Source of the DNA: Craspedostauros australis
Taxonomy: Eukaryota; Bacillariophyta; Bacillariophyceae; Mastogloiales; Achnanthaceae
Direction: 5' to 3'
NCBI GenBank assembly: GCA_026770025.1
Contig: JAMXDE010000008.1
Span: 1,550,001-1,614,000 of the forward strand
Length of the DNA stretch: 64,000 bases
Shown: one piece after another, positions 33,999 through 58,943 of the stretch
How positions within the stretch are numbered: position 1 is the stretch's first letter
How the letters are laid out: each line of letters begins with the position of its first letter
Position numbers and translations under genes: made by a program
Notes under the pieces: generated by a model
What the model was told of the DNA's origin: nothing
Seen by the model: only the letters and a program-made list of their open reading frames with translations
Database searches by the model: none

Positions 33999-34844
33999 GT
34001 TGCAAACGGAGACATCGTTGACAATGATGATGATGATGATAATGATTTGTGCGATGATGTTGATGCAGATCTGCGGCTCGCAGACTTTGCGTTGGTGATG
34101 TTGGTTGCCTTTCTCCAGAACCGCACAACATCATTTTCGGTTCTCGTTGGTTGATGGGTGGAGGAGGACCCATAACCCATTGGTGCCCACTTCTATTTCG
34201 ATCCTCCGCAGCAGCCCCAGCGTACTACTATGTGATGGCCAATACGTACATTGATCATGCCCTATCAATGGGCTTTGCCCTGGTCCTGTCCCAACAATGC
34301 CAGCTAGGATGTTGCGGTCCATTTCCATCACCATTGCTTCGTATTGTATGATCTCGTAGTGTTCCATTGTCAGGAGATCCTTGTGGAGAGTGGTAGAGGC
34401 GCCACGTCCCACTCCTGACGAGGGCACGCTCTGGAGAGATGCATACACTTGGAGCGCCAGAGGAAGATACAGTAGGTGCGTCAGTACATGTTCTTACAGC
34501 TGCAGAGTTGAGCATCGTGGAGTCGATTGTTTTGGTACTGTTGACTGACTACTCGTGTTGAAATGTAACACTCTGGGCATATATGGTGATTTTACAGATT
34601 ACATGTAGGCTATTGTGTTTCTGCATACGCCTGTTGGGACAAGAGAGCGCTGGTCAAGATTGATTTGTCAGGCTGTATGCGGGTGGACGGCGAGATCCCT
34701 TGGATACTTCCGGTGCGTTGGAGACCCAATGAAGAGGGTGATTTTGTTGTTATCCACAAGGTGGCTGGCCCAAACCCTTCAAGACCTGGATTTGGTGTGG
34801 AACCGGAGGAGGGATGTGTTCGTGCTCCTGCTCCCACAGGCCAC
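33999..34844. other. Intergenic region
   Basis: About 850 bases without a supported gene. A GATGAT/AATGAT run lies at 34022-34045 in the presumed leader of the basic protein gene. Confidence 0.5.
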
Positions 34845-40597: not shown

Positions 40598-41085
40598 CGT
40601 GGTGGAAAGCGTTGTACGATGGCTGCTTGTGCTGCGCAGGGAATGCCACGCTGGCATTGACCCGAGCGCTGTGGAATGGGCAGGACCTTGGGAGGTGTAT
40701 TGGTGTCATAGGCGTACAGCTGAAACGACTCTCTAAGGTATCCTCGAAACCGCTTCAAGAATAGAAGGATAGATACATGGAATGGATAGATAGAACACTA
40801 CTCTACTTCATTCGTCTGCTTGAATTCGGTGTCCATGATAGCTTCAGGGTTGATCTCTTGGATGGATGGATGGATGGTGCTAGTACGATCTATGATCGGA
40901 ACCCCAGATTTGATCATCAACGCTGTGCGGAGTTGTGGGAGATCTCGACCGAATCTTTTGGCGGTTGCGATTTGGACATCCACCGCGAGCGACAGAATTG
41001 CCACAAAAATGCGAAGAGAGCAACCAGAACGAGAACGAGAACGAAGTGTTGACTCGCAATCGACCATTCCACCGCAATCGTCACA
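40598..41085. other. Intergenic region before ALG2
   Basis: No gene is seen. A GGATGGATGGATGG repeat lies at 40860-40876. The last 100 bases are A/C/G-rich and look like the ALG2 leader. Confidence 0.5.
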
Positions 41086-42519
41086 ATGGTCTCCAAGACG
41101 ACCACAGGCAGCAGCGACAATACCGATAGCGGCATGACGAGACGTCGACCGCTCAACATCGTGTTCATCCACCTCGATCTCGGAATCGGCGGAGCGGAGC
41201 AGCTGGTGCTGCAGCTAGCCACCGCCTCGCAGGAATGCAAGCACGACGTGACCATCGTCACGACCAGATGCGATCAGGACCATTGCTTCGACGCCGTCAA
41301 GCGTGCCTGCCGCGGCCGCCTCGTCGACACCGTTCGCATTTACGGCAACTGGATTGCGCCGACGATCGCGGGCAAGTTCACAGCACTGTGCAGTGCATTG
41401 CGCATGCTCTATTTGGGAGGCATGGTGTGTCGCAAACATGCGTATGCCGATGTCATTGTGATTGACGTCCTGCCGACGCCCATACCGCTGCTGTTGCGAT
41501 GGTTGCCGACGGCCGGGATTCTATTTTACTGCCATTTCCCAGACAAACTGCTGCTGCAAACAGCGGGCGGCAGCTCCGCCAAGCAGTACTACCGGCGATG
41601 GCTGGATTCGATGGAGGAAGCCACCATGTCCATGGCCGATACGCTGGTTGTCAATTCGGAATTCACGCGGCAGGAAGTCACGAGAGTCTTTCCTTCCACG
41701 ACGCTGAATCGAGAGATCCGCATCTTGTATCCGGCTTTCGACAGTACCAACGCCACCAACGCCAACCACCAAGCCAAGTCGTCACCACAATCGCCCATCG
41801 TCTCGTTGAATCGCTTCGAACGCAAGAAGAACATCGGACTGTTGATCCGGGCCTACGCGCTGCTGAAAGAGCGCATGACAACGCAGCTGCCAAAGGTCAT
41901 CATTGCCGGCGGGTACGATACCAGCAACGTGGAGAATGTGGAACACTACGCCGAACTGCAGCACCTCGCGAAACAATTGAATGTCACGGAGATCGAATTC
42001 CGATTCGACATTTCGGATGCGATGCGATCGCAGCTATTCCAAACGGCGCTGTGCGTGGTGTACACGCCCGACAAGGAGCACTTTGGCATCGTGCCGTTGG
42101 AAGCCATGTACGCGGGCACGCCGGTGTTGGCGGTCAATTCGGGCGGGCCGACCGAAACCGTCGTGGATTCGCGGACGGGGTTCTTGCGCGAACCGACGCC
42201 GCAAGCCTTTGCGGGGGCCTTGGAGATTCTGATCCGGGATCCGCAGCGTGCGACCGTCATGGGGAAGCAAGCCAGGATTCATGTCGAGAAGTCATTTGGT
42301 GCGGATCGGTTCCGTGAACAGTGGGATGAGCTGGTGCTGTCGACGCAGGAACGCAAGAGCAAACGCAAGGTGATGCCATCGGGTGCGCTAATTGTCCCGT
42401 TGGTTTCTATGCTATTCCTCGTTGTGTCGATCATCTTTATCCTGTGGATCACAACGGGATTCGTGCCGAGAAGCGTGGCTGAATACAGTTCCGGGCGTGT
42501 ACTGGCACAAGAGCTGTGA
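41086..42519 (+). CDS. ALG2: ALG2-type alpha-1,3/1,6-mannosyltransferase
   Basis: 477 residues in one exon. The enzyme adds the second and third mannose to the lipid-linked N-glycan precursor (Man1GlcNAc2-PP-dolichol) on the cytosolic face of the ER. It has a GT4 (GT-B) fold: IVFIHLDLGIGGAEQLVLQL near residue 25 is the N-terminal donor/acceptor loop typical of ALG2. YCHFPDKLLLQ and the ADTLVVNSEFTRQEVTRVFP segment are ALG2-like, as is SLNRFERKKNIGLLIRAYAL. The EX7E motif is E331...E339 in KEHFGIVPLEAMYAGTPVLA. A C-terminal transmembrane helix (about 440-462, LIVPLVSMLFLVVSIIFILW) anchors it. It is somewhat longer than human ALG2 (416). The start is ATG in CACAATGGTC. Confidence 0.95.
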   Translation: MVSKTTTGSSDNTDSGMTRRRPLNIVFIHLDLGIGGAEQLVLQLATASQECKHDVTIVTTRCDQDHCFDAVKRACRGRLVDTVRIYGNWIAPTIAGKFTALCSALRMLYLGGMVCRKHAYADVIVIDVLPTPIPLLLRWLPTAGILFYCHFPDKLLLQTAGGSSAKQYYRRWLDSMEEATMSMADTLVVNSEFTRQEVTRVFPSTTLNREIRILYPAFDSTNATNANHQAKSSPQSPIVSLNRFERKKNIGLLIRAYALLKERMTTQLPKVIIAGGYDTSNVENVEHYAELQHLAKQLNVTEIEFRFDISDAMRSQLFQTALCVVYTPDKEHFGIVPLEAMYAGTPVLAVNSGGPTETVVDSRTGFLREPTPQAFAGALEILIRDPQRATVMGKQARIHVEKSFGADRFREQWDELVLSTQERKSKRKVMPSGALIVPLVSMLFLVVSIIFILWITTGFVPRSVAEYSSGRVLAQEL

Positions 42520-43192
42520 AGCGTGGTGTTCACGGAAGCAGTACAGTGGGCATTGCGAAGAGGTGACTTCTGTTTTCATTCAACATGCGACGACACTGTT
42601 CAGGAATAGATGAAGCAACGTGACAGGCGGTGCTACCATGTGGAGAGGTCCTTGCAACAGGCTCACACTCTCTGGAGAAGCAACACGCGTACTACTATGA
42701 GTGCTCTATGCAGACGTGGCATTTGACGAACACAGCTCGGAGTTGGACGTGCGCTGCACTCGCAAAAGTTTCATCTTGTCCAGACATAGTATAATAGTAC
42801 CCACGCTCTCCACGATCCAGATAAACGAACGTGACTTTGAATTGGAATGAGATGGTCTATATGATTAGTTCTGTACGGCAGAGTTGCGTATGAAGAGTTG
42901 TCCTTGTCCCCAGGCTTCTTGACGATGGACAGTGATGCTCGGCATGGACCAGCGTATCTCGCATCCTCCACGCCAATCCGTGACTTGCTTGCTTCCTTGT
43001 GGACGTCCGACATAGACGTCAACAACGACGGCAACGGACCATCCCGACTTGCTATCCATATTTACAAGCCGTCGCTTCCATGACGACGACCAAGAAAAGA
43101 AGAGAACGGCCGTCCATGTTCACGATGGCAATCCCCGATGGAACCCGTCCATGGACACGTGCGCGTGTGCGTCGATACCGTCGTGCTCCCGT
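42520..43192. other. Convergent intergenic region
   Basis: No gene is seen. A TAGTATAATAGTAC motif lies at 42787-42800, similar to motifs after other genes here. Confidence 0.5.
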
Positions 43193-43591
43193 TCATCTCC
43201 TACCCGCCGCAACGTGGATGGATTCTTGCTTCTGGTACTGGCGGATGCGATTGAATCCCTTGCCGCCCGCGTTGCGTTTCTTGTTGCCGTCCTGCCTCAA
43301 GGCCGCCAATGGCTGTGCCGTGGAACCAGGCCGCGCCAATCGGTAGCAGGGATACCCATGCTTGAAGCCGTTCTTGATCTTGACGAGGACGCCTTGCTCC
43401 GTTCCCTTCTTCAGCGTGTCCTTCACGGAACCCTTCGGGATGACGCAGTTGCGCAGATGCGTCGCGATCCATTCCTCGATCTCGTTGACGGAGGGTTCCT
43501 TCAATGCCTGCATGGCCTTCACGATGTGCTGCAGCACGGGATCGTTCTCCTTGTTCTCGTTTGCGGGGGTGGTCTGCTTGCGTCGCGGCAT
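43193..43591 (-). CDS. Small protein with a linker-histone-like (H15) winged-helix domain
   Basis: 132 residues. After a short basic start (MPRRKQTTPANENKEND) the segment of about residues 18-85 reads VLQHIVKAMQALKEPSVNEI, then EEWIATHLRN, KDTLKKGTEQGVLVKIKNG and GYPCYRLARP. This three-helix plus wing pattern (I-x-x-A-x-x-x-L-x-x-x-S-x-x-x-I, then L-K-x-x-x-x-x-G-x-L-V-x-x-x-N-G, then Y-x-L) fits the H15 domain of linker histones or related winged helices. The C-terminus is basic (GNKKRNAGGKGFNRIRQ). It is short for histone H1 because the long Lys-rich tail is absent. It probably binds DNA or chromatin; the exact class is uncertain. Confidence 0.65.
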   Translation of the reverse strand: MPRRKQTTPANENKENDPVLQHIVKAMQALKEPSVNEIEEWIATHLRNCVIPKGSVKDTLKKGTEQGVLVKIKNGFKHGYPCYRLARPGSTAQPLAALRQDGNKKRNAGGKGFNRIRQYQKQESIHVAAGRR

Positions 43592-44062
43592 CTTGGTGCT
43601 TGTTTCTTCTTGTTCTGAGTGATGTCGTTGTGAATCTCACGATGGAACGTCGTTCTTGGTCGCTTCTTTCGATTTTATGACAAGAAGATGAGGCATTCCC
43701 ACACGCTTCCTTGTTTGCGTGGTGTCTGTGCGGAGCAATGTGTGGATACGTGTACGTGCGAGCATGGTTGCTTTCTCGATCCATCGTGGTGATTTCCAAA
43801 ATAACGGTTGGTATCTTGTTCGCAGGACCGCGAAAACACAACGACAACAAACATGTGGGAAACGAACTTCGAAGAACTAGGGACTAAATATTCATGAATC
43901 ACGGACATTCGTTTCAACTTAGACTACTATCTGGAGACTACAACATGGACTCTGTTGCATCCATACGGGCGCTCCACTCTGCTCAAATCTATTATCCACA
44001 CCATTGTACAACTACAACTACTGTATATGTGTCCAATACAACCTACTATCCACGCCATCTCC
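43592..44062. other. Intergenic region
   Basis: Lies between the H15-like gene (5' side) and the 3' end of the ASPM-like gene. No gene is supported. Confidence 0.5.
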
Positions 44063-47000
44063 TCAGAAGTGAAAGTGACGAGGACGGCTCGTCGATCGTC
44101 TCGTGGTCGAGTTGGGCTCTCTGTTCTCCTTCTGCACACTGGCGATGCGTGGAGATCTTCTGGAGGAAGGTCTGTACTCATCGTGGGAGCCGCTGCGTTG
44201 GAGGACGATCGTCTTGTCCACGTACTTTATCATCGCACACGTCTTCTTCAGGTATTGTCCCATGTCCACCTCATGCGCGACGCCCTTGCTTTTGCCGTTG
44301 TGCTTGCTCTTCAACCGCGCTGACGATCTGCGATCGCTACCGACATGGTCGCTCACGCTGGCGCGAAACTTGCGCATGCTCATATTGTAAACGGACTTCA
44401 TACGCTTGTTGTTCTCACGTGAGGCGCACAGCGCTGCAATGTCTGGCGAGCACCGCAGCATGGGATCCAGCAGGTCGATCGAGATACTGAAGATGCTGTC
44501 CTTGTCGCGGAACGTCTGAATGAGGTCCAGCAGCACCTCGCCGCAGTCCAAGGTCGCCATGTGAGGGAGCAAATCGTCGTGGCTCGCCACCGTCAGAAGG
44601 GTCCGCAGGATGCAGTGGACCAGTTCCAGGTGCGGAAGACTGCGGTTGCACTTCCTGATCACTTCCAGCAGTATGGAAGTCGTGTTCGTGGTCACGAAAG
44701 ACTGGCAGCACGGGTACGACAGTCTGGTGGTCGTCTCCAACGTCATCACAGCTGCCATGATGTCCGACAGGCGATTCTTGTACTTCAGATCAAACAGAGC
44801 TTCCTGCGTCCGCACGCCAATCTTCAGCTGCGGATGAGCCTGGGCCTTGCGGTTGGCCTTATCGATTCGATGGACGATGTGCACGCACTTTCGCGAGCAG
44901 TGCTGACGCACGCGTCGGGCTCGCGCAATCGCCTGCACCCGCTTGATTCCACGGGCCACACGGCATGTGATCTTGCGATATAGAAAGGTACTCACAGCTC
45001 GCTGGATGATGTAGGCCGCGTCGTGCTTCCGCATCTCGAACTGGTACTCCCTGAATTGCCGCTGGATGATCGTCGCCTTGTGATGAAGGAAGAGCTCGTC
45101 GGCCAGCGTTTGCAGTCTCAAAGCTTGAACCCTGCTTTTTGCTTGAATACGACGCACTGCTGCCTGGATCTTCATGGTCGCCAAGATATTCATCATGTAC
45201 TCTGTTTCACACTTGTATCCTCTCCACACGCGCTGGATCTCGCGTGCTGCCAGGTTGTAGTAGGCCGTCGACAGTCTGATCTGAAATCCTCTCGCATGGC
45301 GTTGGATGCACGTGGCAGCCTGGCGCTTCATCAGCAGTCGGTTGCGAATGACGTATCCTCGACCCAAGCTCTGAATTGCAGTACATGCGTTCGCTCTGAA
45401 ACGCATCTCATTCCTCCACAATGCACCTCGTACCAACGCTTGGAGTTTGGTGATACCATCTTGCGCACGTTGCAACCGAGCACGTACGATGTGAGCACGG
45501 ACGTGAGACTGAAACTTGATGATCCCAATGACGCTCATGATGTAGTCAACATGCGCAACGTAGCATCGCCACGTCTTCTGGATCGCTCGCGCACCGGCAT
45601 GGCGTCGTGCAATCTGTCTTGCCTTGCGCCCTCTCCAGACCCGCTGGATGTTGGTGCTGGAGGTCTCCCGCGTGTTGTCTTCCCATCTTTGCTGTTGTCG
45701 ATGATATAGTTCACTTCGCGCGATGCGCGTCCTGACGATGGACTGGATTGCTGTTGCTGCGTCGTGCATGGCCCCAACCCGACGGCGGGCCAACCACGAG
45801 CGCACGACGCATTGTGCCATGATCACGTCCTCCGTCAACATTCGAAAGCAATTGTGAATCAGGAATCCGCGGAACCGTGCTTGAATGATGCTTGCCGCAA
45901 TGTCCATCTCGATGAGTTCCTCGCGGACCTGATGTCCACGGATGAAGGACTGAATCGTCACAGCTGCGCTGTACTCGATCATGAAGATGTCCCTTTGCAT
46001 CTTGAGGATGGTCAATTCTCGGTGTGCTCTCCAGGACCGCGCTGCGCGCTGAATGCACGCGATGGCATTGGATTTCTGAACTGCATGGCATCGTGCAATG
46101 TAGCTTCTGGCGAATGATTGCATTCGAATGACCCTTGTGACAGATTGGCCGTAGGCCTCAGCCGCCTTTCTCGATCTCCATGCGCTCTGGATCGTGACAG
46201 CGGCATCGTGTTCCAACATAGCAAGCTGATTACCGCACATCAGCATATCTTGAATTCGTTGTTGGTGTACCACGCCCCAAGCAAAAGCCTGCAGCTTCAA
46301 CACCGCCACCCGTCGGGTCTGCGCTTGCTGCCGTGAAAACCGGAGTCGGGCGATGCTTTGAACCACGATGACATCTTTGATGGACTTGTGGAAGCTCTTG
46401 CTTGCGTGATATCGCCTCCAGACAGCTTGAATTCTGACGGATGCCTTGGTCAATCCATCTCTCTTTGCTTTCTTCTGTTTCAGATCTTGCAATGCCACCC
46501 TCGATACCAGCAGTCGAGCAAAGCACTGGAGGCGCACAACCATGTCCAATCTACGTTGACATTCGTTGCGCTGTTTCCATCGACGGTAGCTACTTTGGTA
46601 AAGGATGATCCTCCATTTGACGACCAAGTACTTGCGGGAGGCTCGATGGCATCGCCAGATCTTCTGAACATCGATCGCAGCCGCTTCTTTCATTCTGAGG
46701 ACACAGCGAATCATGCGTCCACGCCAAATTGCTTGGATTGTGATGGAGGCAACGTTGCGTCGCAGGAAGGTCTGATGAGCATGATGGCGTCGATAGGCGT
46801 TCTGGAGCATGGTTGCCGCAGCAGTGCAACGGGCAACATGCCGGTGGTGTCGCCATGCCTGTTGAATCGAGGCGACCGCCAAGTTGTAGGCGTGCCGCTT
46901 TCTGGTGACCAACGATCGAGCGAGGTGGAGTCGAACATGCGACTGGATCATCAGAACAGCTTGTCGGCGTGTCGATGCCTCCCTGCGAGCTTTCCATCCT

Positions 47001-50000
47001 CGGAACACACCTTGGCATGTGGTGGTGGCCAGCACATCCGCCTTGAATTTGGAAGCAGTGGCACATCGTCTCCATGCAGCTTGGATCGTCGTTGCTGCAA
47101 AGACTGCCGACTCCAGCATGCGACGGTACTTGATGCATCTCCATGCAGCTTGGATGGTTGTCGCTGCGGCTCGATGATTCCTGAAACTCTTGGATTGAAA
47201 GAACCGCCGGAAGGCTGCCTGAATGAGTGTTGCCGCCGCATGCGATCGTGACTTTTCATAGCTGTAGTATCGCCACCGCCTTTGGATCATCACCACCGAT
47301 GCGATATCCCTGAGGAAGTCTGCACGTGCACGAAACCTTCGGATCGAAGACTGTAGCACGGTTGCGGCATGTAGCGTCTCGGTAAACGTCTTGGAGGCAA
47401 GGAAGGCACGGAAGGATGCCTGGATTCGAACTGCTGCGAGGTTGGTCAGTTGTTGGTGGTGGAGTTGATTCAGCTGGTTCCGGGCAAGAGCAGATCGGAA
47501 CGCACACTGTAATGTACTTACAGCAGCTCGCCGTTCCGATGCAATTCTGCGGGCCAGATATTGACGTGCGGCGCTCTGGATGGTGATGGCATCAAATCGC
47601 TTCAGATGTGCCGCAACTAGCCCTGAGAATCCGCGCCATGCAGCCTGGATCTTGATGGCTGCGTTGGTCCACCGCATGAATTCGAAATCTTGTTGTGCAC
47701 GGTGTCCGCGCCAGATCCTTTGAATTGCTTTCGCGCATTCAATCTTCATTTGAAAGGAGAGATTGTCCTGCCATCCGCGAAAGGTTGCTTGGATCAGCGT
47801 CGCAGCGTCGTACTCCAACACCGCCAGCCTCTCCAGCTTTCGTCGGCGCCATCTTCTGAATGCAGCCTGGATGAGGATGGCGGATTCGTCGTCTAGGACC
47901 TTGTTCAGATATGCCAACCATGCTTCTTGGATGATGGTCGCCGCCTGCTGTTGTTGAATCACCTTCTTCCTCGCCAAGGACCCTCTGGCCATGCGCTGCG
48001 CTTGGATTATGCACTGCCTTGAATACTGAAAGCGGGCCCATGCTATGTATCTTCGCCAGACGGATTGGATGGCGGTGGCGGAATCAACTTGAATGAATCG
48101 TTGATCAGCGACGCGCCGAGCAACCCTGCCTCGCCAAATGGACTGAATGATGACGGCAGCGTCTCGCTCCTCTCGTGCATCGGAAGCTTCCCAGCGTCCC
48201 AGCATGCCTCTAAACATTCGCTGGATCTGAATCGCTGCCATGGTGCGATATTCATTGATCAACCGACTGTGCTTCATTTGAACCAGAGAGCGGCGGTGGG
48301 TCCACACGAAGTTTTCGATGATAGCGACTTGCCGGTGGTATTTCAGCCGTTGATTGCACAGGTATCGACCCTTGTTTGCCTGCCAGTACTGGAAGATAGT
48401 GGATGCGGCTGCCTTCTTGCGCTCGAGCATGATCTTCTGAAAATGTTTGCGGTAACTCTTCTGGATCAAGATGCAAGACAGAACCTCGCGGCTGGATTCC
48501 ATCAATCGTGAACAGAGGTAGGAGAGACAAAGTAGGATAGACTGTTCATTGGGTGGGCTGTTGGTGTCGGAGGTAGGCAGCATGCATGGAATGCCGCCGA
48601 GGTCCGTCGCTCGAGAGGATGCCAGGCGGCAGTTGACTCGTTCGTTGGACGACGCCAGGTCTTGAGAGATGGCACCTTCCTCGAAAGCTGGAGATCGGGT
48701 TGTTGGTTTGATCTCATGGCGGCGCAGCGAGCTTGGGTGGTAGTAGTGAATGAGCAGACAGAACACAGTGCCATCAGCGAAGGATTGCGAGAAATCGGTC
48801 ACCCCGATTCCGTAGCAGGCGCACACGACTTGGCACCACCGCAGAAGCAGACGCTTCATGGTCTCCTCAGGTGATGCATCCAGAGGTATGAAGTTGCGTA
48901 GCATCTCCTGTTGCGCGGCCAGATGATGCAGCGAACGACCTTCGATCTTGAATCTGACCCGATTTGACGAATGCACACGTCGAATCTCCTCCTCGACGCA
49001 ATCCTCCCTCAGCAGCTTCTCCATGCAACACTGCGCGATGATGGACCACATCAGCTTGAGCACCATCTCACGATGGCCATCGACGATCTGATGTGGAATG
49101 ACGTCTTGTGGAATTGAGATTCCGAAGGAGCGCAAGTTCTTCAGTGCGATGCCTACGTTGTGCAGCTTCTGCAACCGAGAACCAGCGGGGAGGCGCAACG
49201 CTGTCATGAATTGCTTTGGTTTGCAACCCGCCACAATTTCGGCCAAGCGTGTCAGGCACGAGCCATCGCGGAGATCAGTTGCGAGATTGTCCACATGCAG
49301 ATTGACCTCATCCACAGGCTGTTGTCGGTAGTGCACCTTGAGACCGAGCCGGTTGAGATGCTTCAGAAAATCACCCTCCCCAGTCAAGCATTCGCGGCAT
49401 AGAGACTGGAGGACATCCTTGGATGACTTCACCTTTGAGGTTTTGATAAAGAGCCGCGGTACCTTGTCCAGCACATTCTCCATCTTGGCCATGTCGAGGA
49501 AGATCACGAGCACGATGAGACGGCGGAGGACGATGGATCGCATTTCGGCCTTGTACAATTTTTCGAACTTCCCGGATGGTACCTTGCACTTGCCTCTTGT
49601 GTAGTGTGCGAGAACCGTGCTGTCGGAGAGGACACGCTCAGCGAGAAATGCCTTGATGGTCTGCCGCATGCGTTGAAATGCGGTGATGGCAGCTGCAGTT
49701 GCACTCGTAGGTGCCTGCTTCTTGCTCTTCGAAGGCCTTGCCATTCTAGTTGCCGTTGATTGTTGTGGTTCGCCAATAGTGCTGACGGGCTCGAGGATCT
49801 CTCCGAACACGACCTCGAGCGCAATTCGCAGCCATGGCTGGGAATAGGACGACAAGAGATTGATGATGCTCCTCCGCAACATCAGGTCTGCATGAATATC
49901 TCGATCCGTTCTGATGGCCAAGCGCCCCTTCTTGATCTCTTGATCAACGATCGTCTTGACGCGCTCCATTTCATCGCTTTGGAAGATTTCCGCAGCTCTT

Positions 50001-51862
50001 GATCTGCACTGAGCCAGGTGCTGATGGATGAAGAGTGTTCGAAGTCCCGTATTGCGGCCGCCGGATTGCGGTTCGCTTGACTCCTCCGCACCTTCGATGG
50101 GATTGAGGGTGTAATTGAGCCAGCTAGTAAAGGTGGTTGATTGCTTGTCGGCCCATGATGCTTCACGTCGTTTTGGGGACTTCTGCACAGAGGTTACTTT
50201 TGATGGGGCGTGGGTGCGGCCAAGTTTACCGTATTTTGATGTTGACTGCGATGACTGAAGTTGACGTTGGGGTTGGCGTTGAGGTTTTGACTTGGGAGTG
50301 GATCTCTGCATTCGAGGCTTCGAAGTTGTGGTGGATGGTCGATCTACGGACACGGTGAATGCAACACCCTTGCGTGTAGTTGCGGGGGTAGAGATGGCAG
50401 TCGAAGCGGCGCCTCTGGGCTTCTGCACTGTCGCGGTTCGAGCAGAAGCCACTGCAGAAGTAGAAACACTTTCTGTTATCGTTCGCAGGGCAAGAGATTG
50501 ATTCGGCGTGTCCGTACTTGTATGCAACACTCTTGGCTTCAAGGGAGTGATCGACGACAATGGTGTTGCATGGCTGACTGTTGATGTATGTCTGCCCTTG
50601 TTGGTTGCACTTGTTGCCGATGACGGATTGACGGAGTTTGGTTCGTGTTTGTGCTGGTTCTGCAGATGCTTCTGAACTTCGTGGACCTGTTGTGCCGCCT
50701 GGGGCGAGAGGATGAGCAGGGATGCTTTGTCAATATCAACAGTGGGGCTCTCCGTGCCGGGACTATCCCTTGCATTTGCGTTGTTGCGTCGTGCCTTTGC
50801 AGCTGTCGGAGAGGTTGTCGATGGCTGCCAAACAGCACCAGTCGGACTAACGAGAAGGCTTTCTTCCAGCAAGCTGACATCAGGGTTCGATGGATCGTCA
50901 TCCCCCAGCTCTGTTCGGAGCAATGAGTTGGGCGTCTTGGGAAGTACGATGGAGATCTTCGAAAGAGTTGGCTGCGACGTGAAGCTACGAGCCTTGTTGA
51001 TCGATGATGCTGCAGATGCCATTGTTGGTTTTGTGGCGTTGACGTTGCCGCTGCTGCTGGTGGTGTTGGTATTACTCTTGCTTTTGGTCGCGGTGTCTTC
51101 AGGGATGGTGTGGGATTTGGTTGAAGGTGGCGCAGAGCTGAATGGAGACCAAGTGTAGCCTCTTTGAGTCGATGTGAATTGCAATGGGGTGAATGATGAT
51201 GCCTTACCGCTGCTGCCACTGCTGTTTTTGCTTTTGGTGTCGTCGTCGTTATTCCGTTTTCTGCTGATGGCAGTGTTGATGGAGCCTGTGGACTGGAACG
51301 TGGGTGATATCGTTGCGCGGAGGTTTCGACGAAGATTCACTGCGCTGTTTGGAGTCTTCTCGCCTAGCACAGCAACCGATGCTGCAGGAGCATTCGCCAC
51401 CGTGGAAGATGTGGAGTCATGCACGGGAGATCGGTACGGTGTTCGAGTGTTGGGAGCGATCGTGTTTTCCTTTCCACGGTGTGTCGCACTTAGTCCAAGC
51501 GTCTTTGCGGATTTGCTGAGTGCATTCCTTTGCTTGGTCGAATTGGATGGCTTCAATCTATTCTTGCCTGTCCAGGACATGTCTGCGCTTCTGTTCCCGG
51601 CGTTGGTGCTCGCAGAGGATCGAATCGAGGATCTACCAAGCTTGGAGGTAGCTGGGGTCGACCCCTTCAGCTGGCGACGCAACGATTGCATTGGCGAGAC
51701 GTTGTTGTTGTTGTTGTTGTTGTTGTGCGGCGTCAGTGCTTTCCGGCCCACGATTTTGTTCTTCGTTGACGGCGTCTTGGCTGGTGGCGTGCCGATGGAA
51801 TCATCGAACCCGACCATGCGACCCACGGGCGTCTTTGGCAGCATGTCATGGTAGATCTGCAT
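44063..51862 (-). CDS. ASPM: ASPM (abnormal spindle)-like protein: calponin-homology region, dozens of IQ motifs, C-terminal helical repeats
   Basis: One uninterrupted frame of about 2600 residues. The ATG at 51862 is chosen, with 51844 (MLPKTPVGRMVGFDD) equally good; the frame is open to an ATG at 52198, but that part reads like a leader. The N-terminal third is low-complexity, with an Asn run and S/T-P sites. A segment with ASWADKQSTTFTSWLNYTLN marks the ASPM family. The calponin-homology region follows (coding about 49400-48690: VDNLATDLRDGSCLTRLAEI, then a second block WCQVVCACYGIGVTDFSQSF). Several dozen IQ motifs come next (about 48540-44900; for example AATTIQAAWRCIKYRR). The end is an Arm/HEAT-like domain (about 44800-44400). 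ASPM focuses spindle poles with calmodulin and katanin in animals. I see no N-terminal ASH domain. It is head to head with the CPAP-like gene. Confidence 0.92.
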   Translation of the reverse strand: MQIYHDMLPKTPVGRMVGFDDSIGTPPAKTPSTKNKIVGRKALTPHNNNNNNNNVSPMQSLRRQLKGSTPATSKLGRSSIRSSASTNAGNRSADMSWTGKNRLKPSNSTKQRNALSKSAKTLGLSATHRGKENTIAPNTRTPYRSPVHDSTSSTVANAPAASVAVLGEKTPNSAVNLRRNLRATISPTFQSTGSINTAISRKRNNDDDTKSKNSSGSSGKASSFTPLQFTSTQRGYTWSPFSSAPPSTKSHTIPEDTATKSKSNTNTTSSSGNVNATKPTMASAASSINKARSFTSQPTLSKISIVLPKTPNSLLRTELGDDDPSNPDVSLLEESLLVSPTGAVWQPSTTSPTAAKARRNNANARDSPGTESPTVDIDKASLLILSPQAAQQVHEVQKHLQNQHKHEPNSVNPSSATSATNKGRHTSTVSHATPLSSITPLKPRVLHTSTDTPNQSLALRTITESVSTSAVASARTATVQKPRGAASTAISTPATTRKGVAFTVSVDRPSTTTSKPRMQRSTPKSKPQRQPQRQLQSSQSTSKYGKLGRTHAPSKVTSVQKSPKRREASWADKQSTTFTSWLNYTLNPIEGAEESSEPQSGGRNTGLRTLFIHQHLAQCRSRAAEIFQSDEMERVKTIVDQEIKKGRLAIRTDRDIHADLMLRRSIINLLSSYSQPWLRIALEVVFGEILEPVSTIGEPQQSTATRMARPSKSKKQAPTSATAAAITAFQRMRQTIKAFLAERVLSDSTVLAHYTRGKCKVPSGKFEKLYKAEMRSIVLRRLIVLVIFLDMAKMENVLDKVPRLFIKTSKVKSSKDVLQSLCRECLTGEGDFLKHLNRLGLKVHYRQQPVDEVNLHVDNLATDLRDGSCLTRLAEIVAGCKPKQFMTALRLPAGSRLQKLHNVGIALKNLRSFGISIPQDVIPHQIVDGHREMVLKLMWSIIAQCCMEKLLREDCVEEEIRRVHSSNRVRFKIEGRSLHHLAAQQEMLRNFIPLDASPEETMKRLLLRWCQVVCACYGIGVTDFSQSFADGTVFCLLIHYYHPSSLRRHEIKPTTRSPAFEEGAISQDLASSNERVNCRLASSRATDLGGIPCMLPTSDTNSPPNEQSILLCLSYLCSRLMESSREVLSCILIQKSYRKHFQKIMLERKKAAASTIFQYWQANKGRYLCNQRLKYHRQVAIIENFVWTHRRSLVQMKHSRLINEYRTMAAIQIQRMFRGMLGRWEASDAREERDAAVIIQSIWRGRVARRVADQRFIQVDSATAIQSVWRRYIAWARFQYSRQCIIQAQRMARGSLARKKVIQQQQAATIIQEAWLAYLNKVLDDESAILIQAAFRRWRRRKLERLAVLEYDAATLIQATFRGWQDNLSFQMKIECAKAIQRIWRGHRAQQDFEFMRWTNAAIKIQAAWRGFSGLVAAHLKRFDAITIQSAARQYLARRIASERRAAVSTLQCAFRSALARNQLNQLHHQQLTNLAAVRIQASFRAFLASKTFTETLHAATVLQSSIRRFRARADFLRDIASVVMIQRRWRYYSYEKSRSHAAATLIQAAFRRFFQSKSFRNHRAAATTIQAAWRCIKYRRMLESAVFAATTIQAAWRRCATASKFKADVLATTTCQGVFRGWKARREASTRRQAVLMIQSHVRLHLARSLVTRKRHAYNLAVASIQQAWRHHRHVARCTAAATMLQNAYRRHHAHQTFLRRNVASITIQAIWRGRMIRCVLRMKEAAAIDVQKIWRCHRASRKYLVVKWRIILYQSSYRRWKQRNECQRRLDMVVRLQCFARLLVSRVALQDLKQKKAKRDGLTKASVRIQAVWRRYHASKSFHKSIKDVIVVQSIARLRFSRQQAQTRRVAVLKLQAFAWGVVHQQRIQDMLMCGNQLAMLEHDAAVTIQSAWRSRKAAEAYGQSVTRVIRMQSFARSYIARCHAVQKSNAIACIQRAARSWRAHRELTILKMQRDIFMIEYSAAVTIQSFIRGHQVREELIEMDIAASIIQARFRGFLIHNCFRMLTEDVIMAQCVVRSWLARRRVGAMHDAATAIQSIVRTRIARSELYHRQQQRWEDNTRETSSTNIQRVWRGRKARQIARRHAGARAIQKTWRCYVAHVDYIMSVIGIIKFQSHVRAHIVRARLQRAQDGITKLQALVRGALWRNEMRFRANACTAIQSLGRGYVIRNRLLMKRQAATCIQRHARGFQIRLSTAYYNLAAREIQRVWRGYKCETEYMMNILATMKIQAAVRRIQAKSRVQALRLQTLADELFLHHKATIIQRQFREYQFEMRKHDAAYIIQRAVSTFLYRKITCRVARGIKRVQAIARARRVRQHCSRKCVHIVHRIDKANRKAQAHPQLKIGVRTQEALFDLKYKNRLSDIMAAVMTLETTTRLSYPCCQSFVTTNTTSILLEVIRKCNRSLPHLELVHCILRTLLTVASHDDLLPHMATLDCGEVLLDLIQTFRDKDSIFSISIDLLDPMLRCSPDIAALCASRENNKRMKSVYNMSMRKFRASVSDHVGSDRRSSARLKSKHNGKSKGVAHEVDMGQYLKKTCAMIKYVDKTIVLQRSGSHDEYRPSSRRSPRIASVQKENREPNSTTRRSTSRPRHFHF

Positions 51863-52498
51863 CGTGTCGTGATTGCACAACACAAAAACAATCCACAAAT
51901 CAAGTTCGATCGCCGGCAACCAGTAAGGGGATGCTATCTTATTGTGTATTCTGGTGTTGCCGTCCTCTTCGTCGTTGTCGTTGTCGCCACTCGCTCGACA
52001 CTTTCGTCTTTCCTCTGTGGTGTTCTCAATCAACTTGTGTCCTCTTGTGCCGCTGGCTGCTCTTTCTGTGTACCGTCGACCTGCATCCACCATGGCGGAA
52101 GCTACCAACCATCTCGCCGCGTTGTGTTTGTGTTGGTTTTGTCGCGACGGCATTGAATTGTGACGAAAGTGTTGTTGAACATGTTTACTTATGGCCATGA
52201 TTTGAATTTGAATGGTTAACGCTCAACAAGCGTTATTTCACCATACTAAAACAATCAAGATGATGCCAATGGCGTGGCAGGCGCGACGTGTCAAATCTGT
52301 TCTCACTCAGGTTTGGTTTGATTCCTCTCTCTCTGGCGCTTTCACATCTCTCTGTTCGTGGTTGCATCGCGTTGGCGAGATCGCAACACATTGAGGAGGG
52401 ATCGTTCGTCTTTGGTGCCTGCTGCACCTCTGCCATTCACCTTCATCATCTTTATCCCACACAAGGCTCACAGATTTGAACTGAGCATCAAAGTGACC
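51863..52498. promoter_or_regulatory. Putative shared (bidirectional) promoter of the ASPM-like and CPAP-like genes
   Basis: 636 bases separate the two start codons. Both frames stay open for part of the way outward (to 52198 on the minus strand), but the translated stretches lack family likeness, so they are taken as leaders. No certain TATA or initiator is seen. That the two genes share regulation is inference from the arrangement. Confidence 0.45.
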
Positions 52499-55318
52499 AT
52501 GATTCTCAGCAGAGGACCTCCGCAGCAGGTGCAGTATCAAGCTGCTGTTTCGGGACATCAGGCCATGACTCCAACCATGAACATGAACACGAGCATGAAT
52601 GCGAATGCGAGCGCAGGTGCAGATGTAGGCACGCAAATGATGATGAATGAAGTTCGTCGCAGAGATGATGACCGATACGCACCCGCATCGAGGAGAACGC
52701 CGCCGGCGACGGCAACCAACGTCATCCCCAACGAGTTCTTCTCGCCGCTCAGTTACTCCCTCTCTGTCGATTCATCGAAGCATTTCATCGAGCCTCCGAG
52801 CGTGCCAAGGCCACCACCTCCGACCCAGCAACTTCATGAGGAACCAAACGTGCAGCAACTTCTGAACCATCACACAGCACCACATACGAGTACTAGCAAA
52901 AGCATGGCAGAAAATCTATCTCCCGTGTTCGATTACCATCATCATCCGCAACCACATACGCAGCCAGTCACTCATCGCAAGACCAAGCAACCACAATCGC
53001 AAGCCCATGATGCTCCCACACCAGCAGATGCCAAATCACGGGGATCTGCCTGGTCGACGGATTGGAAGCGATTGATCATGCTCTCCCCAGATGGCAAGCT
53101 GGCTCTCAAGACGCCACAAGCTGCGGAAAAGAAAGCAGCTGCATCTGCATCTGTATCAGCACGGCGAACTTCGACAGCCACACAACGCACGGCAGGCACG
53201 GCATTGCAACAAAACAAGCCAGTTCTGGAGTCACAGGACGTTCACGAATTGCTATCCTACATAGATGGCCTTGGTTTCACATCACCACGATTGCATCAGG
53301 AGCTTCGCCGGCTTGCATCAACCGATGCGAACGAAGACGACGAGGTTACAAATGGCGTTGGCGCTGGATCTATGACTGTGGATGCATCGCAATTGTCCAA
53401 CCGAAACGCACTCATGACGCCTTCCAGGGGCCGTCGTCACACCAACTCGAAGATCCGCGTGCCTCCCATGACGTCTGTTAAGTTTCCGCGTGAGCTCCAT
53501 CAATCACCGTCGAGATCAGCGTTGTCGGATAGAACGAATGCCATCTCCAACGTTGCGGGAGCGTCATCACTGAATCAGTCGCAAGGAATGCATCACAATC
53601 AGCCCTACAAACAAGCTTCTTCCCAGGAGCAGGCGTATCCACAAGCTGTCAAGATGGGAGCACAGCACTCCGCAGTTAAAGCACAAGGCAATTCAGCTGC
53701 CTTTGAATCCAGCACGGCTCATCGCCCTGATCCTCCGATTGTTGATATGTCGACAGAATATCAGGGATCTGTGGGTGTTTCTCGGAGCAATCACGACGCA
53801 GTTGCAGATGGAAGTGGTGGAAACGTCGCCGACCGCAGTTCCTCGCTGCTGGGCACTTCGTACATCTCGATGGCGTCCAGAACCATGTCATCACAGCCAC
53901 CAGCTCCAACACCACAGCAGCAACACCAACAGAAGGATCTACGTTCGCATGAAACTGCATTGCAAGCCAACTATCCAACGTGGGAGAGCCCGCAACACTT
54001 TGCTGACATGTCACGAGACAGATACGAGCCAATGGCACCGCCGAACACGAACAGGACGAATCGGACGAACAGATCTCAGAAGACCCAAAAGTCCGCGTCC
54101 ATTGCGGCTGGTCCTTCACCAGCCCAAATGCTCCCACCAACATCCACACCGGCGGCTGCATCTTTTGCAGCCCAAATCGAACAATCACAAGGCACACCTG
54201 CACCAAACGGCACGCCAGCACATGGAAAAGACTCGAGAATTGTGAAGCAACTGTTGGAAAAGGCCGTCGCAACCTTGAATGATGCTCAGAGAGAACGGGA
54301 CTCCGCCAGGGAATGGGCCGAATCCGTGAAGACTTCTGTCGGCCAATGGGCAACTGAACAGCGCAATCTACTTGACTTCGAAAAGCATCAACAGCAACAG
54401 CAGAAGGAGCAAAAGAAGCACCAGGAGGATAGTGAACTTCATCGAAAGGATCAGCTGGATAGGGAGGCTCTCTCGCAACAGCACTTGCAGCAGCAGACCC
54501 ATCTCATCCAGTCACTGGAGGGAGCGGTGCTTGAGCTTCAGAAACAAGTCACGGATGAACATCAGAAACGCCAGAGCACTGAAGCATCCCTCCAAGACTT
54601 GCTTGTCAATCAGCAATCCAAGATGCAGCAGCTCGGTAATCAACTGAGCTCGGTGGAGCAACTGGTCGTCAGCGCAACCAGCACCAGCGGCGGGACTTTG
54701 GGATCGTCGCTCAAATCTGACAGCCCGCAAGATCGCTTCCCAAATCAGCGCTACGGGAACGTGGCCTCCGATGAAATCCCGCGTCACGTTGCTCACACTC
54801 CCGCGAATCAGCCCATCCGACATGCCGACGATCCAACGACCACTGTCATGGCGCACAAGCGCGCAGCCAACCATTTCATCGACACTCCACACCAATCGCA
54901 AGGAGGCAGGCTGTTCCAGGCCGCAGGTGCAGTTGTTGCTGATGGACCCCAACTGACGCATCTGCAAACCGCCACGAATGGCCCAGAGCAAGCAAAAGAA
55001 CGCAGGAGCCGACGAACCAAAGAGGTAACCGATCGTGGGTACATGATCCGGTACAGCAATGGAGTCCAGAAGGAAGTCCATCACGACGGCACCACAGTAA
55101 CTCGGTTTGTGAATGGCGACGTCGAGACCAAGCTTCCCCATTCCGGCAGCGTCGCCTACTTCCACGCCGGCGATCAAGTGCTGCAAATCACCTTGCCAGA
55201 TCAATCCGTCCTGTACGAGTACTCCAACCAGCAAATGGAACGACATCTGCCGAATGGAGACAAGGTCATCATGTTCCCCAACGGTATGAAGCAGGTGTTG
55301 ATGCGTGGTGTGGTATAG
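52499..55318 (+). CDS. CPAP/SAS-4 (CENPJ)-like centriolar protein with TCP10 C-terminal domain
   Basis: 939 residues in one exon from the ATG in GTGACCATGATT; upstream in-frame codons lack an ATG. Most of the protein is disordered, rich in Gln, Ser, Pro and Thr. A long coiled coil lies at about residues 580-735 (LLEKAVATLNDAQRERDSAR, then LEKHQQQ-like stretches and QSLEGAVLELQKQVTDEHQK). The C-terminus (about 845-935) is a G-box/TCP10 domain made of short beta repeats: RYSNGVQKEVHHDGTTVTRF, VNGDVETKLP, YEYSNQQMERHLPNGDKVIM and FPNGMKQVLM. In CPAP/SAS-4 this beta-sheet binds STIL/Ana2 and builds centriole walls. It implies that the organism makes centrioles or basal bodies at some stage. It sits head to head with the ASPM-like gene. 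STIL-binding residues were not checked. Confidence 0.88.
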   Translation: MILSRGPPQQVQYQAAVSGHQAMTPTMNMNTSMNANASAGADVGTQMMMNEVRRRDDDRYAPASRRTPPATATNVIPNEFFSPLSYSLSVDSSKHFIEPPSVPRPPPPTQQLHEEPNVQQLLNHHTAPHTSTSKSMAENLSPVFDYHHHPQPHTQPVTHRKTKQPQSQAHDAPTPADAKSRGSAWSTDWKRLIMLSPDGKLALKTPQAAEKKAAASASVSARRTSTATQRTAGTALQQNKPVLESQDVHELLSYIDGLGFTSPRLHQELRRLASTDANEDDEVTNGVGAGSMTVDASQLSNRNALMTPSRGRRHTNSKIRVPPMTSVKFPRELHQSPSRSALSDRTNAISNVAGASSLNQSQGMHHNQPYKQASSQEQAYPQAVKMGAQHSAVKAQGNSAAFESSTAHRPDPPIVDMSTEYQGSVGVSRSNHDAVADGSGGNVADRSSSLLGTSYISMASRTMSSQPPAPTPQQQHQQKDLRSHETALQANYPTWESPQHFADMSRDRYEPMAPPNTNRTNRTNRSQKTQKSASIAAGPSPAQMLPPTSTPAAASFAAQIEQSQGTPAPNGTPAHGKDSRIVKQLLEKAVATLNDAQRERDSAREWAESVKTSVGQWATEQRNLLDFEKHQQQQQKEQKKHQEDSELHRKDQLDREALSQQHLQQQTHLIQSLEGAVLELQKQVTDEHQKRQSTEASLQDLLVNQQSKMQQLGNQLSSVEQLVVSATSTSGGTLGSSLKSDSPQDRFPNQRYGNVASDEIPRHVAHTPANQPIRHADDPTTTVMAHKRAANHFIDTPHQSQGGRLFQAAGAVVADGPQLTHLQTATNGPEQAKERRSRRTKEVTDRGYMIRYSNGVQKEVHHDGTTVTRFVNGDVETKLPHSGSVAYFHAGDQVLQITLPDQSVLYEYSNQQMERHLPNGDKVIMFPNGMKQVLMRGVV

Positions 55319-55488
55319 ATGTGATTTTGGAACGTTAACAATAGGAGCGTACGTATGCATATGTGTATAGTATGGTGTGCGGGAGATGTTTGGAGACGCG
55401 AACTTGGTCGTACACGTACTTGCACAATCTAGTACTGTTACGGCCAATCGTGGAGTATTAGGTGCACGCAGCCGTCTGTGTGGTGCTA

Positions 55489-56456
55489 GTGCCTCAAACA
55501 AACGGCTGTAGCCAACGCCATTGGCGATTTTTGGCGATTTTTGGATCACGAAAAATGGTCTGTAGAATCTAGTACATTTTCTACGTAAGTCCCGAACGAA
55601 AACAGGCCAGAAACAGCATCAACCGTGGTCCAACTCTCCGCACTCAGCTCGTATGGGCCATCCTGTACTCATATTTAAGTTATAGTATCGAATAGTGTTT
55701 ATATATACCATCCTTAAGTTTGGTGGCTGTTGCTCTCTTTCTCGGTGAGCACTGATGCCATCCATCAAGCACCCCCATCATTCACGGACGTTTTTTGGCT
55801 TCTGGTTGGCGTGTTTTCATGGTCGAGTTGTTCCAAAGAAGTGTCCCAACCGTCCATGACGTCATAATGACGCAAGCGTTGGAACCAGAATTGACCAAAC
55901 TTGCCACCGAAATTGGGGATCCGAGTGGTCAAATATCAATCCGACCTCCATGGGAGCACTAAACGCAAGCATACCTCCATACCATCGCACTCAAACATAA
56001 TATAGATCATATAGTTGTGACCGCCTCGGAGAGAGTATTCTGAAATGATATCTATTGTACAGATTGAGCCAAAGAATGCTCAGCGCGGAGACTTCAAAGA
56101 TGGAGGGTCGAATTTCTCGAAACAAGAGGCCAGATCCTACCAGACCCCTGTAGAATCCTACTTGTAGCCAAATGTAGCCAATGAAAACCCGGTCCGTCCT
56201 TCGTCCGAAGGCAAAACCACACCAAGGGGGTCAACAAACACAAAAAGATCGATGAGATGGTAGTAACAACATTATAATGTTAACACTTGCCTGGATAGCC
56301 CTGGCTCTTAAGTTTACGTAGATGTGAAGAGATGTTGGATTGAGTGTCTATAAAACGAAGGCGGAGTTTGGGAAAAACTGATCCAAAATCTGTAGCCAAC
56401 TGTAGCCAATAATCGCCAATAATCGCCAATTTTTGGGGTCCGTTTGTTTGAGGCAC
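55489..56456. mobile_element. Non-autonomous DNA transposon (MITE-like), ~970 bases, with terminal inverted repeats
   Basis: The ends are perfect inverted repeats: CTAGTGCCTCAAACAAACGG at 55486-55505 and its complement at 56440-56459. The bases TA next to both ends (55487-55488 and 56457-56458) could be a TA target duplication. Inside each end are clusters of TGTAGCCAA and (T)AATCGCCAA/TTGGCGATTTTTGG subrepeats, also inverted relative to each other. The interior has no coding frame with a known domain and contains a full TGACGTCA at 55857-55864. It lies between the CPAP-like gene and the exostosin gene, ending about 275 bases before the latter's ATG. The superfamily is not certain; a TA duplication would suggest Tc1/mariner-like. 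Confidence 0.82.
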
Positions 56457-56731
56457 TAGTAAGTCACATCAAGTACAGCTCACGGGCTACCGCGTTGTTG
56501 AAACCGAACACTTCGAACCGATGCGTTCCGAGCGAGTCTTGGGCGTTTGTGTGCGACCTGGAACCTCCACACAACTCCGACGCACCGAGCCCCCAAACAA
56601 ACCACCCAAACTCTTCGCCATCATCATCACAATCACCAACCACCGGACCCAAGGTCTTGTATTTTATTGAAGGCAGAATCCAGTCGAGGACTTGTATCCC
56701 ACAAGTAGGAACACCAATATCCCAGGCAACA

Positions 56732-58243
56732 ATGGCAAAGAAAGAACAAAAACGTACAGCGAAGGCGCCCAAGGCACCCAAGGCGATAACGAACTTTGCC
56801 CTCACCATAGCCGCAGTGGTGGCCCTCGTCTGCACGATGCTGGTGGTCGATCAAAAGACTCTCCCCGAGTTCCTCATTTCGCAAAGTACAGATCCGCGTG
56901 TCGCCGTCAATGGTTCTGGCACTGACGAAGAAGCCTCCCCCACAGCGATCGTTGCCGAGGACACTCCCAACACAAATCATAGCGCACCAATCGCAGGCAA
57001 CGAGAGCCCCGTGAGCACCGAGCCTGCCGCTGCTGCAATCAACGGAAGCAATATTCCTCCTCCAATACCTGCCATCGCCAATGACACAAACCAACCACCG
57101 CCGCAACGGCCCGTGCGTACCCAGAGGATGAGACGGCAATCATGTTTTGCGCCTCATTTCGATGTTCCACAGGTGGTCACGTACGATCCTGCCTACGTCT
57201 TTGAAATGAAGGTTCCCTTCTACGTATACGAAGATCAACTCAGCATGGCAGACATGACATCGTGCGGGGTTCCACTTGGGATGACGAATTACGCATTCTT
57301 TAAGCACTCCGATGACTACTGGATGCTCCAAAGTGCCCTAGTTCATCCCATGCGGACCAAGAATGCGACAGAAGCAAAGCTCTTCTTCGTGCCATTTTTA
57401 ATGAACGCCCTCGCTGACGGTATCGCATGGAGAAATCGCTATCTTTGCATCCACGATGGGATGACATGCTTCGATCATACCGTCACCCCCAATGTGGAAA
57501 TCAGCTGGGCGGACATGATGCTGGGACGATCAGAGTACTTCCGACGCTTCAATGGTGCAGATCATGTAGTGGTCACTTCACACTACGCAGCATCACGCGC
57601 CTACCGGCGGTTTGGCCACTTCACCAACATAATGTCTACCAACCGCGTCATCTACCAGAATTTCCCTCAACGCTGGCCAGACAGCACGCTACCACCCCGC
57701 ATCACAATGCAGAATCTCTACGTTGCCAACCAGGGATGCCAGGCCGTGCCGCCCAACGAGAAGACTGCGGACTTCGCACTCATCGCTTCCATGAAACCGA
57801 ACGACAGAAACTTCGATGACCGTGCGCACATTTGCCAATGGATCGCAGACGCAAACTACTCCAACACCAACTGCGGCGCTGGGAAGATGTGCCCAGCTCT
57901 AGCCAACGCCAGGTTCGGCTTCCATGCTCGGGGCGATGACTATGGCTCCAACAGGCCCTTCGATATCGTTGCGTCCGAGACCGTGCCGGTATTCACGCAT
58001 GAGGAGCAGTTCCGCATACTGCCAGATTTCGCAAGGTTCCGAGAAATGAGCTACCTTGTGAATGTCTCGTCTGCAGAAGCATTCCACGACACGATCCGAC
58101 CTTTGCTGGAACTGACGCTTGAAGCGTACACCGCGAAGCTGGCCATTGTGAAGGCGAATGCCCGACGTGTAGACATCACAACAGGCGAGCCGTTCGATAT
58201 CTATATGGCGGAGTTTGCAAGGAAGTTACGGTTCCAGGATTAG
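56732..58243 (+). CDS. Exostosin-family (GT47-like) glycosyltransferase, type II membrane protein
   Basis: 503 residues in one exon, starting at ATG in AACAATGGCA. A Lys-rich cytosolic N-terminus (MAKKEQKRTAKAPKAPKA) is followed by a transmembrane helix (about 22-41, FALTIAAVVALVCTMLVVDQ). A Pro/Asn-rich stem leads to the exostosin domain (about 150-490). Landmarks are KVPFYVYED, NATEAKLFFVPFLMNALADG, then HVVVTSHYAASRAYRRFG and, near the end, FGFHARGDDYGSNRPFDIVA with SETVPVF. The last block corresponds to the nucleotide-sugar binding 'G-D-x-x-S-x-R...G-C-I-P-V' region of GT47. The expected place is the Golgi; donor and acceptor cannot be told. The transposon-like element at 55489-56456 lies in its presumed promoter. 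Confidence 0.88.
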   Translation: MAKKEQKRTAKAPKAPKAITNFALTIAAVVALVCTMLVVDQKTLPEFLISQSTDPRVAVNGSGTDEEASPTAIVAEDTPNTNHSAPIAGNESPVSTEPAAAAINGSNIPPPIPAIANDTNQPPPQRPVRTQRMRRQSCFAPHFDVPQVVTYDPAYVFEMKVPFYVYEDQLSMADMTSCGVPLGMTNYAFFKHSDDYWMLQSALVHPMRTKNATEAKLFFVPFLMNALADGIAWRNRYLCIHDGMTCFDHTVTPNVEISWADMMLGRSEYFRRFNGADHVVVTSHYAASRAYRRFGHFTNIMSTNRVIYQNFPQRWPDSTLPPRITMQNLYVANQGCQAVPPNEKTADFALIASMKPNDRNFDDRAHICQWIADANYSNTNCGAGKMCPALANARFGFHARGDDYGSNRPFDIVASETVPVFTHEEQFRILPDFARFREMSYLVNVSSAEAFHDTIRPLLELTLEAYTAKLAIVKANARRVDITTGEPFDIYMAEFARKLRFQD

Positions 58244-58943
58244 TGGGTCGAGGTGCATCAAACTTGTACGTACTCATATGGTAACCAGCGCTCCCAAGTT
58301 CCCATCAAGAACCTTCACGAGAGCAGTGCAATTTCGCACATGTGCTGCGCAGAAGTTCATTGGTTGGACATTCCGTACGAGCGCTGCAACATAATAGTAT
58401 TTTAATATTATAGAATATTATATAATATATTCTATGATGATTATTGGGAAGACGGGAAGGACGGATGGAATTTGCTCTGCTATTCAAATCAACAAGGATG
58501 ATTGTTTGGCCACATTTGTGCTTCTGCTCATGCCATCATCATGTCCATCTTTGCGTTCGAGATTGGTTGTGATTTCGATTTCTGTGGAGGTTGGGATTCA
58601 TGGGAGGGGATCGCGGTGCTCTATTGAAGGACGCTGTCGTTTGGCGCTCTGCCAAATTGAGGAAAACGCGTCCATGGATGCAACCCGGAGACGAACGAAG
58701 GCTGTACCACGAGAATCAGATTTGGTCAACAGGATCCTCCTTGTCGCGAAGATCCAAAAGGAATCCAAATGGGGACACCATCCGCCATCGTGGGTGCGAG
58801 TTTCCACAATCAAACGGCGACCGACTTGCTCCTGCACTGGCTAATCCTCCGAAGTGACATCCACAGCAACACTAACACTAACTCAAACACAAACAATTGC
58901 AGCAACAATTGAAACAGCAACAACGATAACAATAACGATAACG
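58244..58943. other. Intergenic region
   Basis: An AT-rich tract at 58391-58432 (TATTTTAATATTATAGAATA and similar) follows the exostosin gene. The last 80 bases are an A/C-rich leader with ACAATTG and ACGATAAC repeats before the ATG at 58944. No other gene is seen. Confidence 0.55.

Follow-up and report, generated by a model that had tools for sequence, protein, structure and literature searches.

The window, that is, the whole stretch of 64,000 nucleotides analyzed here, carries a divergent pair composed of an ASPM-type gene and a gene for a CPAP/SAS-4-like protein with a TCP domain, in the genome of a diatom apparently devoid of flagella, and we believe, with a probability that we put at roughly one half, that the two genes serve an acentriolar spindle pole together. 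Both reading frames are uninterrupted and lie where the first-pass annotation had placed them, and the head-to-head geometry that it described is borne out. The ASPM-type gene occupies positions 44063..51862 of the minus strand as a single intronless open frame of 2599 aa, with a low-complexity N-terminus, CH domains, an IQ array and, beyond it, additional C-terminal sequence, and the CPAP/SAS-4-like gene (52499..55318, plus strand) encodes 939 aa (P0002) with a low-complexity N-terminus, a Gln-rich stretch and a partial TCP (G-box) domain at the C-terminus. Between the two start codons there are 636 bp (51863..52498). The longest ATG-to-stop frame of the minus strand starts at 52198 and has 2711 aa (P0001, whose residue numbers are followed below); this upstream extension stays open in the window copy only, and in the two other copies of the pair present in the same genome (A and C; the window is copy B) the frame opens 12 codons upstream of the ATG that matches window position 51862. 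Because this ATG is the only one common to the three copies, the start at 51862 and the spacing of 636 bp proposed earlier are supported, and the ASPM-type protein most likely has 2599 residues, as compared with 2599 in A and 2597 in C. The start-to-start spacing is 628 bp in A and 633 bp in C, so that the geometry used to define bidirectional promoters, divergent genes less than 1 kb apart, is found in all three copies.

The assignment of the two proteins to the ASPM and CPAP families is supported overall, the former by the CH/IQ architecture and the latter by homology of the TCP domain, but with reservations, since neither an ASH domain nor a full TCP domain was found and the Tcp10_C cut-off was not reached. 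In the ASPM-type protein, calponin-homology domains precede a long array of IQ motifs. Pfam CH matched P0001 in two stretches (9.4e-21, the best at 1114-1231), CAMSAP_CH just exceeded its cut-off of 27 (27.6 bits at 1133-1164), CH_2 stayed below its own cut-off (18 bits at 966-1053), and Pfam IQ matched in 20 stretches (7e-65). A regular expression for the IQ core gave 40 matches in P0001, 39 of them inside residues 1245-2421, and 300 shuffles of these residues yielded on average 2 and never more than 7 cores; the diatom protein has thus about 39 cores, as against 24 in fly and 60 in mouse (PMC10047693). The C-terminal region, where HEAT/Armadillo-like repeats were sought, was modeled as helical with a mean pLDDT of 43, too low for the model to be of use, and had no Pfam match. 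This layout resembles that of ASPM/Asp (MCPH5), likewise a large protein in which CH domains are followed by a long IQ array and the C-terminus extends beyond the array, and differs from it in that no Pfam match up to E 1 was obtained in P0001 for the N-terminal ASH/Hydin domain, which occurs in the ASPM/Asp proteins of fly, mouse and human (PMC10047693). Because this domain was not found, we name the protein ASPM-type and not a proven ASPM orthologue, the label being taken from the architecture and not from an alignment to an ASPM sequence. Among prokaryote-genome and viral contigs, which are silent on diatoms, no relative of the CH region was confirmed.

For P0002, a search of PDB sequences matched residues 831-930 to the TCP domain of zebrafish CPAP (6.3e-14) and the protein to two fly Sas-4 chains (4.8e-5 and 6.3e-5), the species of these chains following in part PMC3776556. 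Pfam Tcp10_C was matched with an E value of 9e-9 and 35.3 bits, 0.7 under the curated 36. The PDB matches up to E 1 corresponded to 7 distinct sequences, namely five TCP-domain chains and two cation-channel chains, and no chain of the tubulin-binding PN2-3, a short segment, was among them; PN2-3 chains are presumably present in PDB. The TCP (G-box) domain detected is partial, as it covers about 100 residues or about the first half of the crystallized domain, and a single-sequence model of residues 826-939 displayed ten strands with a mean pLDDT of 58. In zebrafish CPAP, the STIL-binding groove is formed by F978, Y994, Y996, H1003, T1005, F1015, Q1019 and E1021 (PMC3776556). Five of these eight residues (F978, Y994, T1005, Q1019 and E1021) are identical in P0002, F1015 is replaced by Tyr, and Y996 and H1003 are changed, and all three copies agree at these groove positions; E1021, which is kept, is the human microcephaly position. 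The PRxxPxP ligand of the groove was absent from both proteins in all three copies and, as it is absent, a binding of the ASPM-type protein by the TCP groove was set aside as being without sequence support. On the whole, P0002 resembles CPAP/CENPJ/SAS-4 (MCPH6) in its C-terminal TCP domain, with a STIL-binding groove that appears mostly kept, and in its long, mostly low-complexity N-terminal part, and differs in that it has only the first 100 or so TCP residues, in that the tubulin-binding segment is undetected, and in that SAS-6, axonemal dynein and the two tested IFT-B genes were not detected in the host genome. It is claimed here as SAS-4-like and not as a centriole assembly factor.

The first-pass annotation had attributed the DNA to a diatom, and the many silicon-transporter and light-harvesting matches in the genome agree with this. 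It had also suggested that the pair would be needed mainly when flagellated gametes form; on this view, it would constitute a co-regulated centriole-assembly and spindle-pole module of a centric diatom. The genome speaks against this proposal. A search for dynein heavy-chain motors found one gene, of which a 1338-aa part scored 1469-1501 bits with the top cytoplasmic dynein 1 chains, as compared with a maximum of 708 bits for axonemal or dynein-2 chains (among the best 60 of 84 matches), and by these scores the single heavy chain found is a cytoplasmic dynein 1. Three tubulin genes were found, which we read from their letters as alpha, gamma and beta and no others. SAS-6_N had no match in the genome, an absence that is unproven because the named controls were prokaryotes and no usable positive control existed, and IFT46 and IFT57, likewise without such a control, were unmatched as well. 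By comparison, IFT-B has been completely lost in pennate diatoms and partly kept in the centric ones, which produce flagellated sperm (PMC10328945), and the cilia of diatom sperm carry dynein arms, whereas pennates have lost cilia totally (PMC9010356). As doublet centrioles have been noted in centric diatoms (PMC9010356), missing delta and epsilon tubulins are not enough on their own to exclude a diatom of this kind. The best reading of these sequence data is that the host is a flagellum-less, pennate-like diatom, and therefore the gamete interpretation is disfavored and the TCP protein would most likely serve an acentriolar spindle pole. It is true that the protein families would fit a gamete module, that centric diatoms have flagellated sperm, and that a brown-alga (kelp) transcriptome lists ASPM among female white-light-responsive gametogenesis genes (PMC6742357), which also means that ASPM in ochrophytes is not new. 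However, the only dynein heavy chain found is cytoplasmic, and SAS-6_N, IFT46 and IFT57 are unmatched, so that we consider the gamete module very unlikely.

Several other features of the genome were observed. The gamma-tubulin-like frame (contig C18:193200-194500) has a long Gln/Ser/His-rich stretch near its N-terminus, which is unusual for a conserved gamma-tubulin unless the stretch is in fact an intron whose frame is open by chance. The silicon transporters (PF03842) are hugely expanded, with 88 matches on many contigs, none of the listed matches being in the window; 32 of the 88 span at least 480 of the 513 model positions, and 28 of these 32 lack internal stops. The diatom genomes that have been compared contain 3-8 of these genes, and Parmales 1-2 together with a nearly full set of flagellar genes (PMC10328945); an affinity with Parmales was rejected, since here the silicon transporters are many and the flagellar genes were not found. 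An oomycete host, which the intron-poor genes and the genome size of 75 Mb had first brought to mind, was likewise rejected in view of the abundance of light-harvesting and silicon-transporter families; a search of the genome for Elicitin, without a usable control, was empty.

We searched the genome itself (74.8 Mb in 90 contigs; E <= 0.001) and obtained three matches each for P0002, the CH region of the ASPM-type protein and the DNA of a neighboring glycosyltransferase gene, repeat counts being lower bounds. All three copies are on one contig, C6, the window copy being at about 1.60 Mb and the others at about 1.03 and 2.94 Mb. By local blastn we delimited a segmental duplication block of 25-29 kb (window 29717..58400), which in copy A (C6 about 1.006-1.042 Mb) matches window positions of about 29717-58400 in pieces and in copy C (C6 about 2.883-2.947 Mb) those of about 30122-55308, with an insertion of about 38 kb. 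The identity is mostly 94-96%, and 83-91% around a frame with DUF7640. After window position 55490, copy A has about 6.4 kb versus 1.1 kb in the window, and B and C cease to match when 10 bases of the CPAP-like frame remain, the last CPAP-like residues of copy C being different. The pair was duplicated as one unit to three loci. An alternative is that there was no real triplication and that the copies are an assembly artefact, that is, retained haplotypes or mis-joined contigs, and it could be invoked because all three are on one contig and because a difference of 4-5% between copies would be compatible with alleles in some protists. Yet the flanks fetched around A, B and C are unlike one another and the homology ends at different points in each, and the dynein heavy chain and each tubulin type are single matches in the same assembly, which makes haplotype retention unlikely. 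As the state of a UTP4-like gene of the block is also unequal between copies, we regard an artefact as highly improbable. In a check for gene conversion, the copy-specific sites were spread, somewhat unevenly, across the block. The longest runs lacking sites private to A or private to B were at the right edge, where the homology of copy C ends, and a run without C-only sites at 50793-51088 had a length that was reached or exceeded in 1.25% of the shuffles, so that this could be a small conversion tract.

Both genes of the pair are open in all three copies. The pairwise NG86 dN/dS was 0.27-0.29 for the ASPM-type gene and 0.33-0.40 for the CPAP-like gene, and the values for the A, B and C branches were 0.26, 0.28 and 0.30 in the former and 0.42, 0.29 and 0.38 in the latter. 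A simple neutral simulation, run at the dS of each branch, predicted for A, B and C 13.4, 11.2 and 10.0 stops in the ASPM-type gene (the lowest of 200 runs giving 4, 3 and 2) and 4.3, 4.3 and 3.1 in the CPAP-like gene (the lowest of 200 runs giving 0), and none was observed in either. Purifying selection has acted on both genes in all three copies. The UTP4-like (U3 snoRNP WD40) gene of the block (30983..33998, minus strand) is an internal control in this respect, as two of the three copies (the window and A) have it broken and C alone has it as a single open frame, whereas the pair is intact in all three. The open copy-C frame matched UTP4 chains with E values of 5e-22 to 6.7e-22; a fragment of the gene had no PDB match, and another of its frames had two matches at chance level only. 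The window copy has three in-frame stops, two of which are also in A, so that the breaks are both shared and private. The two shared stops point to A and B having had a common ancestor for a short time, but the dS of the ASPM-type gene disagrees, as it is lowest between B and C. The working copy of this housekeeping gene is probably that in copy C, its sole open frame. The WD40 frame was also considered as a third spindle or centriole gene of the WDR62 or POC1 type, and this was dropped because the copy-C frame matches UTP4.

Retention in triplicate is not unique to the pair. The glycosyltransferase gene (41086..42519, plus strand; Pfam Glycos_transf_1, 1.6e-31) has open frames of 491, 488 and 488 codons with dN/dS of 0.17-0.23, the 39.5-kb gene of the block is open in the three copies with dN/dS of 0.27-0.52, the DUF7640 frame is also open in all three, and a GT47 gene is open in the two copies that possess it. 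The sequence that contains the DUF7640 frame (window 34845-37370, minus strand) is present in an extra inverted copy near 0.99 Mb of C6, and copy C has its 38-kb insertion next to it; the frame may belong to a mobile or repeat-rich gene family.

In the alignment of the three copies, 35 of the 626 columns of the start-to-start DNA are variable (binomial 1.9e-4), as compared with 157 of 1639 four-fold sites (113/1203 in the ASPM-type gene and 44/436 in the CPAP-like gene). The variation is distributed as 24/310 in the ASPM-side half and 11/316 in the CPAP-side half (52181-52498), and the latter gave a binomial value of 2.8e-5 against the four-fold sites for a split that was picked after viewing the alignment. 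Constraint of this kind is also seen outside the shared region, since the stretch between the glycosyltransferase and ASPM-type genes (79/1528 variable; binomial 1.5e-10) is also below the four-fold sites and whole genes in the block have 3.8-5.3% variable columns. Low variation in the CPAP-side half fits a shared regulatory region, another intergenic stretch being constrained too, and a bidirectional promoter between the two genes, as predicted from the sequence, is plausible. A tandem TTTGAA TTTGAA at window positions 52201-52212, in the middle of the intergenic region, is kept in all three copies and resembles the CHR cell-cycle element. This is only a lead, because it was noticed after the fact and 2.4% of the overlapping 636-bp windows equal or exceed the intergenic region of the window copy in their number of TTYGAA motifs.

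It is quite possible, at somewhat below even odds, that the two genes are adjacent by chance in a compact genome, each with its own promoter, and that they were triplicated merely by segmental duplication in a duplication-prone genome. Divergent pairs are common in the window, where a manual count over 18 non-overlapping frames with 250 aa or more gave 4 out of 17 neighboring pairs. Other block genes are likewise retained in three copies, the silicon transporters have multiplied as well, and further intergenic DNA in the block is constrained. On the other hand, the pair is the closest of the four divergent ones (636 bp versus about 1.0, 1.9 and 2.1 kb), and its CPAP-side half is the least variable of the intergenic stretches measured, though similar to the whole genes of the block. 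Moreover, ASPM and CPAP are functionally linked in animals, where CEP63 and CENPJ/CPAP are interaction partners of ASPM and WDR62 (PMC10047693; see also PMC8153008) and where the loss of either asp or Sas4 in fly brains perturbs microtubules and chromatin (PMC13286369).

Returning to joint service at an acentriolar pole, we propose that the TCP protein would work at the spindle-pole MTOC, where its mostly kept groove may bind a proline-rich partner and scaffold microtubule-nucleating material. At that pole, the ASPM-type protein would use its CH domains to focus the minus ends of microtubules and would presumably carry calmodulin-type light chains on its IQ array, and the short common 5' region could switch both genes on together for mitosis (and meiosis). 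More tentatively, since we would not lean towards the whole of this scenario, a diatom lineage losing centrioles and flagella might have kept the SAS-4/CPAP scaffold, re-used it at an acentriolar pole under co-regulation with the ASPM-type gene and amplified both to three selected copies. If true, the three copies would perhaps raise or diversify spindle-pole dosage, and the ancestral role of CPAP would include the scaffolding of poles or MTOCs and not the building of centrioles only. SAS-4/CPAP is commonly regarded as one of the core factors of centriole assembly, and PMC3776556 frames it in this way. A SAS-4-like gene that is triplicated and under selection, in a genome where neither axonemal dynein nor SAS-6 is detectable, would set pole scaffolding apart from centriole building. 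Such a diatom would also be a simple organism for testing a cooperation between ASPM and CPAP without the centriole, which is hard to isolate in animal cells.

The genes for ASPM and CENPJ are not known to be linked in mammals or to be neighbors in vertebrates. Mammals have an ASPM-WDR62-CEP63-CPAP complex of the mother centriole (Jayaraman et al. 2016, cited in PMC10047693 and PMC8153008). Of this complex, the diatom has an ASPM-like and a CPAP-like member, but their genes form a head-to-head pair and the cell is probably acentriolar, whereas the mammalian complex acts at the centriole; moreover, the WD40 gene of the block is UTP4 and not WDR62. In the full-text literature we found no paper joining ASPM, CENPJ and "bidirectional promoter", and the titles and abstract beginnings among the matches listed, in a corpus that subscription journals are mostly outside of, held no description of an ASPM/CPAP pair or of its triplication in a diatom. 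The ASPM and CPAP families are known; what is more interesting is that the pair has been triplicated under selection and that its context appears to be acentriolar. Elsewhere in the window, positions 1844-3622 of the plus strand encode a protein with a prenyltransferase alpha-alpha toroid (PF00432, 4.6e-94).
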